A stretch of 64,000 nt of DNA from IMG/VR virus record IMGVR_UViG_3300021376_002797, positions 1 to 64,000 of that record. The stretch is one strand, 5' to 3'. How positions within the stretch are numbered: position 1 is the stretch's first letter; the number at the start of each line of letters is the position of its first letter. Of the stretch, positions 41,736-60,297 are shown piece by piece. This stretch comes from a virus. The notes beneath the pieces were generated by a model. That model did no database searches and had not been told where the DNA came from. It worked only from the letters and a program-made list of their open reading frames with translations. A program made the translations under genes and the position numbers.

Positions 41736-42143
41736 TGGTGGACCTAGAGGGCTCCGACTCCCTCGTCCGGATCATCTTGTTTAAAAGACGACTACATGTT
41801 TAGGTTGGCATTTTCTAATACCCCAAAATATTTGATTTTATCTTGATCAAAAACAAGTATGGTTTGTTCTTCACTATCGTAAACCAAAAACCAATAGACC
41901 ACTCAATTTCGGGTTTAGTGGTAATCTACCTTAGTCACTCCTGTTCCTGAGCGTATGTGATCCGGCTCGCGTATCCGTAAACTTCTTAAGCTACAGTTAC
42001 TTCTTGAGTTGAGATTAGACCCAAAGTCTCAAGGTTGTTTAGCACATTGCCATTTAAAATGTGAATCAGTTTTTAACGAGATTAATTCAGTCCCGACATG
42101 CTTCTTTTATTCAACCAATGCCCGTCAAATCCAATATAGGCCC
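41736..42143 (-). ncRNA. ssrA: tmRNA (transfer-messenger RNA)
   Basis: About 408 nt. The 5' end GGGCCTA pairs with TAGGTCC just before the encoded ACCA 3' end (7 bp with the G-U at pair 3 usual in tmRNA). TTGGATTTGACGGGC matches the conserved 5' tmRNA segment. AGCATGTCGGGACTG, then TCTCGTTAAAAACTG, corresponds to pseudoknot 1. A resume codon GGC after TTTAAAT opens a tag frame of 21 codons, from GNVLNN to QEVTVA and TAA, with the stop inside a GTAAC/GTTTAC hairpin. The T-arm (stem GAGGG/CCCTC) has an eight-base loop rather than the usual seven. Role: rescue of stalled ribosomes and tagging of the products. This fills the otherwise gene-free 41611-42222 gap. Confidence 0.9.
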
Positions 42144-42176: not shown

Positions 42177-42184
42177 CAAAGATA
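42177..42184 (-). promoter_or_regulatory. Possible -7 element of the tmRNA promoter
   Basis: TATCTTTG on the minus strand, 33 nt upstream of the mature 5' end, which would need 5' processing (e.g. RNase P). No clear -33 element. Confidence 0.4.
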
Positions 42185-42222: not shown

Positions 42223-43401
42223 ATGTTGAGAAAAAAATTTATCTTTGAAACTGACGAAGAAAAAGATGTTGATGAAATGTCTGACTATGAAAAAATCATA
42301 CGTTTAGCAAAAGGTAGACTTAGTCCTCGTGAAGTTTATTTTGAAGATTCAAACGGTAAAGATTATGGTGACATTATTGAAGTCACTTATGATGGTATTA
42401 TTTTTACTTTTGATGGTTTATCTGATTATTTACAATTCTTTTTTCCTGAAGAATATGAAGAAGGTAGTGATGGTGAATATGATGCAAGAAATTATGAAGC
42501 GATGTATTCAGGAAATTGGTCTTGGTATGAAGAGTTTTACGATAGGGATAGTCAAGATTGGGTAGAAGGGTATGTTACAGAAAGATTTAGAAAAAACCAT
42601 TTAGAATTAGTTAGAGATATTGCAAGATTTTTATCACCAACGATTTATACAAAACTTTCAAAAGTTTTAGAAGGAAAGGCGGAGTTTGATTCAGAATTAA
42701 ATATTGAAATAAGAGATTTTTTAGATACAATAAATATTGGTGATGAAATAACAGAGGCTTATACAGATGCAAATCATGCGGCAATTGTAGACGAAGTACC
42801 AAAAGGAATTGAAGATACATATTGTGATTGTTTAAGAAATGTTGGTGTTGAAAGATATAGTCAAAAATATTGTTTTTGGAAATATGAAATGGATTGGGCT
42901 TCTTGTGTAATGTTATTTGCTCGTTTTGGTACCGACGAAGATAATTTTTTAGATCTACTATTTAATGCAATTAAAAAAGAAAATATTTCACATTTACCTG
43001 AGTATTATGAAATGCAGTATCAATTTTGGGACGCCGAAAAATTTGAAAGTACTTGGAATAGTGGTGTTGAAGAAGTATTAGAAAGAAAATTAGAGGATAT
43101 ACAAACTAATACTGAAAATTATAATGAAAAATATAAAGAAATTATAGATAAAGTATCTCAAATTGGAGGAATTAATAATTGGATCTCAACAAAAGATAAA
43201 AAATACCAAATTCTTATAGATGTTATAGATCCATCTACAGGTCAAATTACATATAAAATTAAAAAACCAAATGAATGGAACACTAAGGTAGGAAAAACAG
43301 ATATTGATGGAATAATTAATATAATTTATAACGAAAAATTATTTAATATGATGGAGCACCTTGATAGATTTTCAATACTTAGAAATAAGACGTTCCTTTA
43401 G
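42223..43401 (+). CDS. Hypothetical protein, possible tag
   Basis: 392 residues from ATG 42223. MLRKKFIFETDEEKD has IFE|T as a possible short tag site. The protein is acidic, with aromatic-rich helices (YSGNWSWYEEFYDRDSQDW), four Cys in the middle (TYCDCLRNVG, KYCFWK, WASCVM) and a helical end. It overlaps the convergent peptidase gene by 30 nt. No family recognised. Confidence 0.65.
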   Translation: MLRKKFIFETDEEKDVDEMSDYEKIIRLAKGRLSPREVYFEDSNGKDYGDIIEVTYDGIIFTFDGLSDYLQFFFPEEYEEGSDGEYDARNYEAMYSGNWSWYEEFYDRDSQDWVEGYVTERFRKNHLELVRDIARFLSPTIYTKLSKVLEGKAEFDSELNIEIRDFLDTINIGDEITEAYTDANHAAIVDEVPKGIEDTYCDCLRNVGVERYSQKYCFWKYEMDWASCVMLFARFGTDEDNFLDLLFNAIKKENISHLPEYYEMQYQFWDAEKFESTWNSGVEEVLERKLEDIQTNTENYNEKYKEIIDKVSQIGGINNWISTKDKKYQILIDVIDPSTGQITYKIKKPNEWNTKVGKTDIDGIINIIYNEKLFNMMEHLDRFSILRNKTFL

Positions 43402-44418
43402 TATCTCATATAAATACACCAAATCATCATCATTTATAAAAAGTGAATTACCATAAAAAATATCTGATATTGTAATACCATCTTTTTCTTCAATAACATC
43501 GATGCTTTCTAATTGATGAACAGGGTAATCCTCAATTTCTTCATCGTCTTCAAATTGAAGTAATGAGTTCATAACTGTTTGTGGTGTATATACAATTGGT
43601 TTATATTCATACTTATATTTTTTCAAACCCAATTCTTTAACCATATTTAATCCTGCTGTAATTGCATTTTCAACATCTTCTATTGAAACAAATTCTTGAT
43701 TTGAATGCATGTTATAATAACCACATGACATGTTGATACAACAAACATCAATTTTCTTTTTTAACTGTGATATGTCTGTATAAGGGTGAGATTGAACAAG
43801 CATTTCATTTTTAAATGCATTTTCAATAGCGTCAATTGATTTAATAAAAAATTCACTATCACGTTCAAATAAACGAACTCCCGAGCATATCTCGGAGATT
43901 AAGTGATTACCAGGTGCGTCGTATTGTGTGATATACCCGACATCTTGTAAAAAGTTTTCATCACATTTTGAAGAACCGTGACAACCTGTTTCTTCTGAAA
44001 CAAAAAGACCAATTTTTACTTTATCTAATGTTTTTAATAACTCTAAACAAATAAAAATACCACATTTATCATCACCACCAATACCTGTTGGATTACCGTC
44101 TTCGGTGTAAGCTTTTAAACATGGAACCTCATCGTTACCAAACGATTTACCAAATGTATTTGGTCTAATTAGGTTTTCTTCTTTTACTATGATTTTATCT
44201 ACTTTATGATGAACGGTGTCCGTGTGTGAAATAAACATTGGATAAAATTCACCTTCGTTTAATTCACCTTTAGTTGCATATATATTCATCATACCATCTC
44301 GGTAGTAGGAGACGCCTGGAATTGTGTCTAATTCATTACAAAGATATTCTACCATATCTTCTTCTTGATATGTTTTAGAAGGGACAGATAATATTTCTTT
44401 GAATTTATTTATGTTCAT
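43372..44418 (-). CDS. M20/M42-type zinc aminopeptidase
   Basis: 348 residues. Zinc-site motifs of PepT-like peptidases are visible: MFISHTDTVHH (H and D), GIGGDDKCGIFICLELL (bridging D), LFVSEETGCHGSS (EE pair), and a late His in YYNMHSNQEFVS. The length is slightly short for PepT (~400), probably with a reduced lid domain. Role: cleavage of short peptides or amino-acid release, possibly for phage protein synthesis. Untagged, minus strand; TATCTTTA upstream may be a host-type -7 element. Confidence 0.82.
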   Translation of the reverse strand: MNINKFKEILSVPSKTYQEEDMVEYLCNELDTIPGVSYYRDGMMNIYATKGELNEGEFYPMFISHTDTVHHKVDKIIVKEENLIRPNTFGKSFGNDEVPCLKAYTEDGNPTGIGGDDKCGIFICLELLKTLDKVKIGLFVSEETGCHGSSKCDENFLQDVGYITQYDAPGNHLISEICSGVRLFERDSEFFIKSIDAIENAFKNEMLVQSHPYTDISQLKKKIDVCCINMSCGYYNMHSNQEFVSIEDVENAITAGLNMVKELGLKKYKYEYKPIVYTPQTVMNSLLQFEDDEEIEDYPVHQLESIDVIEEKDGITISDIFYGNSLFINDDDLVYLYEILKERLISKY

Positions 44419-47675: not shown

Positions 47676-49892
47676 CTATTTTTTACGTTTTGTTGGTTTT
47701 TTTATTTTAACTTCAGTTTTTTTATCTTTTTCGTTATATGATAAAATGAATTTTGAACCTTTTTCAGGGTTGTCACTAATTACTTTATCAGTAACCGCAT
47801 CATCGACCCACTTTTGAATGGTTCTTTTCAATATACGAGCACCGAATCTAGTGTCAGTACCAACACCTATAATGTGTTTTTTTAATGTCTCATCGACCTC
47901 CAATTCAAAATCAATTAAAGAAACTCTTTCATACACTTTTTCAAGTTCCAAATCAACAATTTTTAATAGGTCGGTCTCATTAAGATCTTTAAAATAAATA
48001 ATTTCATCAAACCTATTTATAAATTCAGGTGCAAACTTTTTAAATAATTCTTTTTCTAATAGAGATTTTATCTCCTCTTCCTTTTTCTCAACTTTTGAAT
48101 TTGTTGCAAATCCAACACCTGTACCAAAATCTTGAACTATCTTTGTTCCAACATTAGATGTCATTAAAATAATACAGTTTTTGAAATTGATTTTTCTTCC
48201 GTGACCATCAGTTAAAAATCCTTCATCTAACATTTGTAAAAATACGTTAAATATTTCAGGATGTGCCTTTTCAATCTCATCTAACAAAATAACAGAATAT
48301 GGTTTGTTTTTAATTTTATTTAAAAATGGTGATCCATCTTCATACCCAACATAGCCTGGTGATGTTCCTGTGAGTTTTGATGTTGCAATCTTATCTGAAA
48401 ATTCACTCATATCTAATCTAATAAGTGCGTCTTCAGTATTAAACATATGTTTCGCTAATTGCTTAGCCAACTCAGTTTTACCAACACCTGAATTACCAAT
48501 TAATAATCCACTAAATATTGGTTTTTTAGGGTCATTTAATCCGACCTTATTTCTTTGTATTGCTTTTGATATTTTTGCAACTGCATCATCTTGACCAATA
48601 ACTTTTGTTGATAGCGTATCTTTGAGTGTTTTTAATTGTTCTGTCTCATCTGTTGATATTTTTGATATTGGTATTTTTGTAATAAGTGACGCGACATCAT
48701 ATACAATATCTTCTGTAACTTCTCTTTTGAATAAATTTCTATTTTTTTCAAATTCCGCCTTTTCTCTTTCTAAATCATTCAAAACTTTTCTTTCCTTATC
48801 TCTAAGATTTGCCGCTTCCTCGTATCTTTGACTGTTTATTACTATAACCTTTTCTTCTTTGATTTCTTGAGCCTGTCTTTTTAAATCTTCAATAATTTCA
48901 GGTAATTTTATTTCAACTTGTGATCTAGCTCCAACCTCATCAATAATATCAAACGCCTTATCAGGAAACTCTCTATCTGTGATGTAACGGTCCGCTAACT
49001 CAACACATAGTTTTAATATATCATCACTATAAGTTACTTTATGGTGATCTTCATATCTATCTTTTGAATTTTGAAGTATCTGTAAGGTCTCTTCTTTTGT
49101 TGAAGGGTCCACCATTACTTTTTGGAATCTCCTTTCAAGTGCACCATCTTTTTCAATATTTTTTCTATATTCTTCTAAAGTAGTTGCACCAATACATTGT
49201 AGTTCTCCTCTTGAAAGTGCAGGTTTAAATATATTTGAAGCATCCATCGATCCTGAGGCATTTCCCGCACCAATCATTGTATGGATTTCATCAATAAAAA
49301 TTATAATATCGGGGTTATTGTATAATTCTTCCATAATCACTTTCATTCTTTCTTCAAATTGTCCTCTATATTTTGTTCCAGCAACAATTGATGTCATATC
49401 TAATGAAACAATCCTTTTACCTGATAAATTTTGAGGACAATCACCCTCAAATATTTTCTTTGCTAAACCTTCAACAATTGCCGTTTTACCACAGTTATGT
49501 GAAACCACACCATTTGATATGTATTTTCTTTCATTATCTAACACCTCAAGATCAAAAGTATTATGAACACCAATCTCTTCTTTCTCAATAACCTCATGTA
49601 GGTTATTATCTTCAAAATAAATTGAGTTTCCAACATTTAAATTTTTTAATCTTAACCAATATGAATCATTCATAAATTCAACAAAATCATTATCACTTGT
49701 TTGCCCAACTTCAACTAAATGGTCTTCAGATCCTGAAAGTTCAGACCCGTTTGATAGTTTTATTTTAAAACAATTTTTATTTTGTTTTTTATATAAATTA
49801 CCAACAAGTTTATAACCCGACGGAGTTTTAATTTTGTATGTCCCACCTTCGTTTTTTACAAGGTTAAAAAATTCTTCAATTTTAATTTTCAT
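47676..49892 (-). CDS. Split-intein C-part fused to ClpC-like ATPase C-terminal part
   Basis: 738 residues. Residues 1-133 are the C-terminal part of a split intein ending NGVVSHN. Residue 134 (Cys) starts the C-extein CGKTAIVEGLA, the second half of a Walker A motif. The ATPase follows: Walker B IIIFIDEIHTMIG, Arg-finger region ERRFQKVMVD, a UVR-type middle (YEEAANLRDKERKVL), second AAA+ module with GNSGVGKTELAK and VILLDEIEKAHP, and MTSNVG...GVGFAT, where ClpP-binding loops usually lie. The UVR motif places it with ClpC. After splicing with the 49917 product a 678-residue Clp unfoldase without N-domain would form. Confidence 0.9.
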   Translation of the reverse strand: MKIKIEEFFNLVKNEGGTYKIKTPSGYKLVGNLYKKQNKNCFKIKLSNGSELSGSEDHLVEVGQTSDNDFVEFMNDSYWLRLKNLNVGNSIYFEDNNLHEVIEKEEIGVHNTFDLEVLDNERKYISNGVVSHNCGKTAIVEGLAKKIFEGDCPQNLSGKRIVSLDMTSIVAGTKYRGQFEERMKVIMEELYNNPDIIIFIDEIHTMIGAGNASGSMDASNIFKPALSRGELQCIGATTLEEYRKNIEKDGALERRFQKVMVDPSTKEETLQILQNSKDRYEDHHKVTYSDDILKLCVELADRYITDREFPDKAFDIIDEVGARSQVEIKLPEIIEDLKRQAQEIKEEKVIVINSQRYEEAANLRDKERKVLNDLEREKAEFEKNRNLFKREVTEDIVYDVASLITKIPISKISTDETEQLKTLKDTLSTKVIGQDDAVAKISKAIQRNKVGLNDPKKPIFSGLLIGNSGVGKTELAKQLAKHMFNTEDALIRLDMSEFSDKIATSKLTGTSPGYVGYEDGSPFLNKIKNKPYSVILLDEIEKAHPEIFNVFLQMLDEGFLTDGHGRKINFKNCIILMTSNVGTKIVQDFGTGVGFATNSKVEKKEEEIKSLLEKELFKKFAPEFINRFDEIIYFKDLNETDLLKIVDLELEKVYERVSLIDFELEVDETLKKHIIGVGTDTRFGARILKRTIQKWVDDAVTDKVISDNPEKGSKFILSYNEKDKKTEVKIKKPTKRKK
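49494..49892 (-). other. C-intein (IntC), ~133 residues
   Basis: Block B-like GSEDHLVEV (His in place), block F VHNTFDLEVLDNERKYISNG, block G VVSHN followed by Cys+1. No endonuclease domain. Confidence 0.9.
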
Positions 49893-49916
49893 ATTTTTTA
49901 TTTAATTTTTTTTATT

Positions 49917-50210
49917 TCACATAGTTTCAATATTGTGACTATCTGCGTCAGAAACTTTTTCAATTTCAATCCAAGTATCGCCTAAAACACAACCTGGTTC
50001 ACCTAATATAATAGGGTTATTTTTCTTTCTTCTTGAAAGGATTTGTGCAATTCTATTAATCTCATTTTCTCTACCTACAACAGGATCTAATTTTCCTTCT
50101 TCAGCTAGTTTTATAAGGTCTCTTGAAAAGTTATCTAAAACAGGGGTTTTAGTTTTTGTTTCTGTTTGTTTATTTTTTGATTTTTCCATATCGTCAAATG
50201 ATTCAATCAT
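49917..50210 (-). CDS. ClpC-like N-terminal part fused to short N-intein
   Basis: 97 residues. Residues 1-73 form the start of a Clp ATPase module ([27 protein letters not shown]), breaking off in the middle of Walker A. Residues 74-97 ([12 protein letters not shown]...NIETM) match intein block A with Cys1. A stop codon and 24 nt separate it from the second part. It cannot be an active ATPase alone. The Clp N-domain (~140 residues in ClpC/ClpB) is absent; only ~20 charged residues precede the module. Confidence 0.9.
49920..49991 (-). other. N-intein (IntN), 24 residues
   Basis: Starts with Cys1 directly after GEPG; block A pattern C-x-x-G-D-T-x-I. Unusually short, so this is an atypically split intein with the break close to the N-terminus. 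Confidence 0.88.
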
Positions 50211-50407: not shown

Positions 50408-50773
50408 ATGTTTAGTAGAAATTTTGAAAAATTATTTAATGAACTATGGTCATCAGATCCATTTTTTAATGGTGATAATTGGGAAAGAAAAAACTATAAG
50501 TCCGAAGATGGTAGTATTTCATTTACTTACATTACAAACAAACGAGGAGGACTGAATAAACAAGATGAAATATCATTATTAAAACAAAAACTTGATATTG
50601 CAGTTGATGAACAAAATTTTGAGGAGGCGGTAGAACTCAGAGACAAAATTAAAAATTTAGAGAAAAATAAAGAAGAATTTACAAAACTTAATAAAGAACT
50701 AGATGAATGTTTAAAAAAACAAGATTTTGAAAATGCAATCAAATTAAGAGATAAAATTAGAAGTTTAAAATAA
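50408..50773 (+). CDS. Protein with two UVR motifs
   Basis: 121 residues. Two tandem UVR helix pairs: LLKQKLDIAVDEQNFEEAVE (RDKIKNLE follows) and LNKELDECLKKQDFENAIKL (RDKIRSLK). The ~50-residue N-terminal part (LFNELWSSDPFFNGDNWERK) is unknown. UVR motifs mediate UvrB-UvrC and McsA-ClpC contacts. As it is transcribed divergently from the ClpC-like genes, an adaptor for that ATPase is plausible; an interaction with the phage UvrC-like protein is the alternative. Confidence 0.75.
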   Translation: MFSRNFEKLFNELWSSDPFFNGDNWERKNYKSEDGSISFTYITNKRGGLNKQDEISLLKQKLDIAVDEQNFEEAVELRDKIKNLEKNKEEFTKLNKELDECLKKQDFENAIKLRDKIRSLK

Positions 50774-60124: not shown

Positions 60125-60297
60125 TTCTTTTGTTTATATTTTGCTTTTTTAATCTGAGCCCTTCTTTTTACGGAGGGTTTTTTATATTCTTGTCTTTCTT
60201 GTAGTTTTTGAATTTGTTTAGTTTTATATATTTTAAATTTATATAACTTTAAGGCCTGCTCAATCGACTTTTCATTTTTTACTTCAACTATAATCAT
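60109..60297 (-). CDS. rpsU: Ribosomal protein bS21
   Basis: 62 residues from ATG 60297; the frame is open upstream to 60435 but only this start gives a bS21 length. MIIVEVKNEKSIEQALKLYK, then QERQEYKKPSVKRRAQIKKA, aligns along the whole length with Bacteroidota bS21. It binds the 30S platform near the anti-Shine-Dalgarno end of 16S rRNA and could replace host bS21 in phage-infected cells. Its minus-strand TATTTATA box suggests expression together with virion genes. It stands alone against the direction of the head operon. Confidence 0.92.
   Translation of the reverse strand: MIIVEVKNEKSIEQALKLYKFKIYKTKQIQKLQERQEYKKPSVKRRAQIKKAKYKQKNQLDS
60111..60129. terminator. Bidirectional terminator inside overlapping gene ends
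   Basis: AAGAATC-CAATT-GATTCTT lies within the last codons of both the 59870 gene and bS21. AAAAA stands on the left, but the right side is only TTGTTT, so the hairpin may work better for the minus strand. Confidence 0.5.

Follow-up and report, generated by a model that had tools for sequence, protein, structure and literature searches.

A phage tmRNA with a non-canonical T-loop and a VxVA tag, linked to genes for a ClpC-type unfoldase and a peptidase

The stretch of viral DNA analysed here (the window; 64,000 nucleotides, positions 1 to 64,000 of IMG/VR record IMGVR_UViG_3300021376_002797) carries a full-length tmRNA gene (ssrA) of 408 nt at 41736-42143 on the minus strand. We consider it likely, with a probability of about 0.85, that this gene specifies a functional one-piece tmRNA of a T4-like Bacteroidota phage that acts in ribosome rescue. 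This reading draws on the score of the tmRNA covariance model RF00023, a helix test among relatives, the G3-U70 pair, constraint on the tag, a promoter box and T-runs, synteny with ClpC and peptidase genes, and the presence of SmpB and ClpP in one related contig. Phage tmRNAs are already known; what appears new is the T-loop, the type of tag and the ClpC-peptidase linkage. In the open-access literature we found no prior report of the AGUCGGAG T-loop, of VxVA tags or of a linkage between ClpC, peptidase and tmRNA.

Results

Identity and anatomy of the tmRNA gene

The sequence-only reading had placed a phage tmRNA at these coordinates and proposed a covariance-model search as a check. Using cmscan, RF00023 matched exactly 41736-42143 (minus strand) from end to end (model positions 1-374) with 83.3 bits (E 8e-31), compared to a gathering score of 47, which far exceeds a chance match. 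RF00023 also matched in 20 of 24 contigs tested. The parts listed in the earlier reading were recovered: the 7-bp acceptor stem, in which GGGCCTA (42137-42143) pairs with TAGGTCC (41740-41746) and includes the G3-U70 alanine identity pair; the encoded CCA (41736-41738); the TTGGATTTGACGGG segment; and, upstream of the resume codon, pseudoknot 1 (PK1; 42062-42095), with helices H3 (CGGGA/TCTCG) and H4 (TGAAT/ATTCA). The gene also contains a D-loop-like segment (TGGATTTGACGGG; 42121-42133) whose columns are nearly invariant in the alignment of relatives, a long helix H2, an internal tag frame (GNVLNNLETLGLISTQEVTVA plus a TAA stop; 41986-42051) and pseudoknot 2 (PK2; GAGC/GCTC with TCAC/GTGA; 41935-41968), all on the minus strand. 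The window tmRNA has neither a canonical T-loop (TTCRANY) nor an ALAA-type tag end. The T-arm (41747-41764) is GAGGG-AGTCGGAG-CCCTC, with an 8-nt loop (41752-41759) that the earlier reading had passed over.

A family of related viral tmRNAs

The window belongs to a virus record of 95,278 bases with a T4-like portal and terminase. These genes, together with the retention of structure and tag in more than 100 viral contigs, bear out the phage origin that had been proposed. Patterns (exact and degenerate) derived from the window tmRNA matched 14, 49, 113, 39 and 56 viral-contig stretches in overlapping sets, and 103 complete copies with tag were extracted. Loci L094, L083 and L095 were discarded as chance matches of the tag pattern. 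Neither the window tmRNA nor a relative with a canonical loop, used as nucleotide queries, found a similar sequence among isolate phages (50,697 records for the window tmRNA), and short variant-arm queries of isolate phages gave weak partial matches only.

Base pairing was tested in 33 sequences that differ by at least 10%, against 300 controls that matched a 5' strand with the 3' strand from a different sequence. PK1 H3 was paired in 100% of cells compared to a control mean of 87%, with AT, CG and GC compensatory types, and H4 in 99% compared to 95%. Pairing also exceeded the controls for H2a (98.5% vs 89%), H2b (100% vs 91%), both PK2 stems (100% and 94% vs 91% and 75%) and the last pseudoknot stem (100% vs 81%), and the T-stem covaries among family copies. 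The sequence-only reading had described a tag frame ending in a hairpin. The frame stands, but the hairpin (H5) is unsupported as a structural element: 56% of its cells were paired, hardly above the control mean of 52% and equal to the control maximum of 56%.

Acceptor stems occur in 14 distinct 5'/3' combinations, with 7 of 7 pairs formed in 102 of 105 stems and G3-U70 in all 105. The stretch from PK2 to the last stem (the PK3/PK4 region) is mosaic between contigs. Two copies with mismatched acceptor ends (L011 and L072) may be recombinants or assembly chimeras.

The tag is conserved at the amino-acid level

The tag is (A)GNVLNNLETLGLISTQEVTVA followed by a stop, 21 codons long. All 103 complete copies end in V-x-V-A, the window copy in EVTVA. 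Fourteen different tag peptides were seen, and residues G1, V3, L4, G11, V18, V20 and A21 are invariant in 21-residue tags. Conservation acts on the peptide: among 24 distinct nucleotide versions, 14, 6 and 19 of 21 columns vary at the three codon positions, respectively, and 40% of codon differences are synonymous in frame, compared to 21% and 1% when the two shifted frames are read. The usual tmRNA tag has about 10 residues and an ALAA end. Ten is also the commonest length on record, and tag-less and odd-tag tmRNAs have been reported, so the ALAA end is common rather than universal (PMC11915505).

A variant T-loop shared by unrelated viral tmRNAs

The 8-nt loop of the window tmRNA sits on covarying stems in place of the universal TTCRANY. 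This variant loop was found in 51 of the 103 copies (two of these as AGTCAGAG), and the other 52 have canonical TTCGANN. Since canonical-loop relatives bear the same kind of tag, the variant loop is typical of the family without defining it. CCA is encoded in 51/51 variant-loop copies versus 33/52 canonical ones. The variant loop occurs on five stems (GAGGG, CGGGG, GTGAG, GTGGG and GCGGG), and on GGGAG in a permuted tmRNA, all perfectly paired. It is also present in three unrelated viral tmRNAs: L133 (tag ANNDVEIDDFAIAA), L134 (tag ANDNAFAPVAQAA) and L136 (permuted; RF04321). Searching 1.36 Mb with hairpins carrying 30 shuffled loops gave no matches, compared to 67 for the variant hairpin; 64 of these lie in a GGAC T-arm context, and the remaining 3, all AT-rich, look like chance.

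The L133 tmRNA (L133:2809-3261) also contains a 61-aa ORF (MSNKESGYGIRADLLTLARDIL...) with a ribosome-binding-like site, located in the pseudoknot region between tag and T-arm. This ORF had no match in PHROGs.

Across genomes of 84,980 species of bacteria and archaea, the pattern GGAC-N5-AGTCRGAG-N9-TCCACCA had 7 matches, none of them a tmRNA by Rfam, in a scan that tmRNAs without GGAC and TCCACCA escape; the 7 were dismissed as chance or coding. With a canonical loop substituted, the pattern served as a positive control and matched 95 of 150 genomes from a single bacterial phylum (that of a Pseudomonas). Aligned with one additional A ahead of position 54, the variant loop would preserve U55-C56-R57, and the G/A variation at R57 fits this alignment. 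Because this core is kept, we infer that the AGUCGGAG loop is a T-loop substitute. It is possible that AGTCGGAG arose when a canonical T-hairpin was inverted: read on the other strand it is CTCCGACT, which resembles TTCGACT.

Promoter, terminator and host

A box at 42177-42184 (minus strand; TATCTTTG) conforms to TAnnTTTG, the known -7 promoter motif of Bacteroidota. TAnnTTTG lies upstream of 96 of the 103 tmRNAs (shuffled mean 12.9, maximum 21), and T-runs lie downstream of 97; the window copy shows no clear T-run after its downstream hairpin. From these signals, the tmRNA is probably transcribed.

The box supports a Bacteroidota host. In four relatives (L062, L096, L114 and L127) a group I intron interrupts the T-loop after the TT of TTCGAGT; the intron has an Rfam match in the last three and the same arrangement in L062. 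This is apparently the T-loop subsite that has been reported only for Bacteroidia (PMC11915505), so the introns agree with a Bacteroidota host. These four relatives resemble known intron-containing tmRNA genes, unlike the window tmRNA, whose T-loop has neither an intron nor a TT^CGA site. The hosts are probably Bacteroidota bacteria. The portal's closest isolate relatives, 37-40% identical, are from Microcystis phage Mel-JY01 and immuto-group Flavobacterium phages.

ARAGORN misses the family

ARAGORN reported no tmRNA in the window and misses nearly all family members. The altered T-loop as sole cause of this is ruled out, as 28 of 30 canonical-loop loci were missed too; the other 2 were assigned a wrong tag. 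The claim that tmRNA genes are rare in phages therefore holds only in part: ARAGORN found tmRNA in 402 of 18,146 phage genomes (PMC9004378), a count made with a program that misses this family. Elsewhere, phage tmRNAs account for 79 unique sequences among 97,179 (PMC11915505), and a huge-phage survey reported tmRNA and SmpB (PMC7162821). That survey also used ARAGORN, and as the program misses nearly all members of this family, phage tmRNAs are undercounted. As a separate observation, Stenotrophomonas phage DLP_6 (KU682439.2) has an apparent unannotated permuted tmRNA (L146:1430-1650) with a canonical T-loop and a tag-like frame, ANDDSFAPMAIAA.

Linkage to a ClpC-type unfoldase and a peptidase

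Next to the window tmRNA is a divergent conserved ORF (MLRKKFIF...; 42223-43401, plus strand) without a confident Pfam match; a similar ORF adjoins the tmRNA in relatives. Genes for a peptidase, a ClpC-type unfoldase and a UVR-motif protein all lie within 8.7 kb upstream of the tmRNA. The M42/M20-like metallopeptidase (43372-44418, minus strand) matches PF05343 with 27.3 bits, above the cut-off, and has counterparts between or beside tmRNA and Clp in all 8 mapped neighbourhoods of relatives (in L186 by sequence resemblance only). The ClpC-type AAA+ unfoldase is encoded in two parts on the minus strand, C-terminal (47676-49892) and N-terminal (49917-50210). Its closest solved relative is ClpC (best PDB matches 2e-176), and two AAA domains and a D2-small domain were seen, with no N-domain seen. 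Among 12 Clp proteins, 11 have a VGF loop of the type that docks on ClpP. The protein encoded at 50408-50773 (plus strand) has two UVR motifs (PF02151, 59.1 bits, two stretches), a McsA-like motif, and is a possible ClpC partner.

In all 17 family contigs tested, which are related and in some cases nearly identical so that synteny counts are not independent, a ClpC-type gene lies 1.8-5.6 kb upstream of the tmRNA on the same strand. The linkage extends to tmRNAs with as little as 54% identity (L132). Hsp70 or Hsp20 adjoins Clp in some relatives. The earlier grouping of the tmRNA with Clp was thus borne out by synteny, more strongly than the sequence alone could show. The bS21 homologue is real (60130-60288, minus strand; PF01165, 40.4 bits) but lies about 18 kb from the tmRNA, and bS21 is present in most family contigs without being next to the tmRNA.

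SmpB and ClpP were not found in the window's contig (a 95-kb record, maybe a fragment), the 31 kb outside the window having been searched with the family models. Within the family they occur in one contig only, a 296-kb relative (G013, with L087/L179) that encodes SmpB (143 bits) and ClpP alongside its tmRNA. This indicates that the phage usually has to rely on its host for SmpB and ClpP.

Several other features of these genomes were observed. The window's Clp gene (47676-50210, minus strand) is split into two ORFs within Walker A by intein-like sequence (MKIKIEEFF...VVSHN/CGKT). The N-terminal part ends, after GEPG of Walker A, in an N-intein-like segment, and the C-terminal part is preceded by a C-intein-like segment (~132 aa; TIGR01443, 17.0 bits). 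With an N-part of ~24 aa, the element looks like an atypically split intein. Clp is interrupted in this way in three contigs (window, L179 and L181) and uninterrupted in L180, L182-L184 and L186. In 13 of 24 phage contigs (L022, L096, L112 and L127; contigs G003, G005, G006, G008-G014 and G016-G018), GOLLD RNA (RF02032), an RNA forming 14-mer cages, is encoded on the strand opposite to the tmRNA, at a distance of ~0.1-3 kb; a search of the window's contig did not find it; the GOLLD paper mentions tRNA islands, not tmRNA (PMC12286853). Finally, many small ORFs sharing the N-terminus MKR(I/V)IRLTESDLTRIVRRVI (window 40536, 45061 and 50901, and in relatives) form a paralogous family scattered through the genomes.

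Discussion

The window tmRNA resembles the bacterial one-piece tmRNA (ssrA, RF00023) in its G3-U70 acceptor with CCA, D-like loop, H2, PK1, internal tag frame, further pseudoknots and T-arm. It differs in having the 8-nt AGUCGGAG loop instead of UUCRANY, a 21-residue VTVA tag instead of an ALAA tag of about 10 residues, and a mosaic PK3/PK4 region. As in the mycobacteriophage Bxz1 group, Bacillus phage G, Streptomyces BE phages and OM43 phage Melnitz, a complete tmRNA resides in a phage genome (PMC4131195, PMC9004378); unlike those, the present family combines the altered T-loop with a linked ClpC-type unfoldase and peptidase.

What the sequences show directly is a conserved tmRNA that has every part trans-translation requires, a constrained tag, and a stable linkage to unfoldase and peptidase genes. 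In the proposed pathway, the phage tmRNA would be transcribed from its own promoter, and host AlaRS would recognise G3-U70 and charge it with alanine. Non-stop messages would arise during infection through phage nucleases and the decay of host mRNA, and the tmRNA would reach the stalled ribosomes with the help of EF-Tu and SmpB from the host (in one relative, SmpB is phage-encoded). There it would add Ala and the 21-residue tag, and this rescue would free ribosomes for phage translation. The tag may then serve as a degron for the phage ClpC, which keeps the VGF loop, on host ClpP, and the M20/M42-like peptidase may recycle the products and return amino acids. We put forward the ClpC step tentatively, at somewhat less than even odds. 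Points that count against the overall reading are the absence from the tag of the LAA end known for ClpX, the lack of SmpB and ClpP in the window's contig, the relatedness of the linked contigs and the window copy's lack of a clear T-run.

A serious competitor, which we rate at a little under one half, is a working tmRNA whose tag is recognised by the host's proteases alone, with ClpC and peptidase serving unrelated roles such as virion assembly or general proteostasis and with a neutral change of the T-loop. Like LVA-type degrons, this tag has Ala at its C-terminus, preceded by a hydrophobic residue; phage gene order is kept for many reasons, and the Hsp70 or Hsp20 genes beside ClpC point to general proteostasis. 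However, the linkage to ClpC holds for tmRNAs as divergent as L132, and neutral drift sits poorly with a loop that is nearly invariant on six stems and in unrelated tmRNA scaffolds.

Phage DS6A provides a precedent for another role. Its tmRNA derivative is phage-borne and consists of the tRNA-like domain only (PMC11915505), and such an RNA inhibits endogenous tmRNA (PMC4131195, PMC11915505). By analogy, the window RNA could be a decoy that blocks host trans-translation, its altered T-loop impairing normal use while still binding SmpB. We regard this as very improbable: DS6A has no tag, whereas this family keeps a constrained tag, the mRNA domain and the pseudoknots, none of which a decoy needs, and about half of its members have a canonical T-loop. 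Least likely of all, to the point of being negligible, is a captured host tmRNA that has decayed and lost function. The unusual T-loop, the modest model score and the ARAGORN miss would fit decay, but it is already disfavoured by the covariation, the conserved tag, the promoter and the synteny seen in more than 100 contigs. We retain the reading of a functional tmRNA that acts in ribosome rescue.

The TTCRANY loop ranks among the best conserved motifs in RNA. A speculative and rather doubtful extension is that AGUCRGAG, found on varied stems and in unrelated one-piece and permuted tmRNAs and absent from bacterial ones, is the phages' own class of tRNA-like T-loop. It may shield the gene or the RNA from elements or enzymes that target TTCGA (group I introns, integrases, T-loop modification), and would here be part of a phage-owned pathway in which the tmRNA's private tag leads to phage ClpC and aminopeptidase. 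A conserved replacement of the T-loop, seen in this analysis only in viral tmRNAs, offers a natural test of the need for this loop in charging, EF-Tu and SmpB binding, and ribosome entry.

A role of phage tmRNA in recycling host protein was proposed earlier for Melnitz (PMC9004378). In the family described here, the gene linkage of tmRNA, unfoldase and peptidase suggests a virus-owned tag-and-recycle pathway. If this is true, a private tag linked to phage ClpC would constitute a phage-owned protein-marking pathway that could be tested with purified parts.
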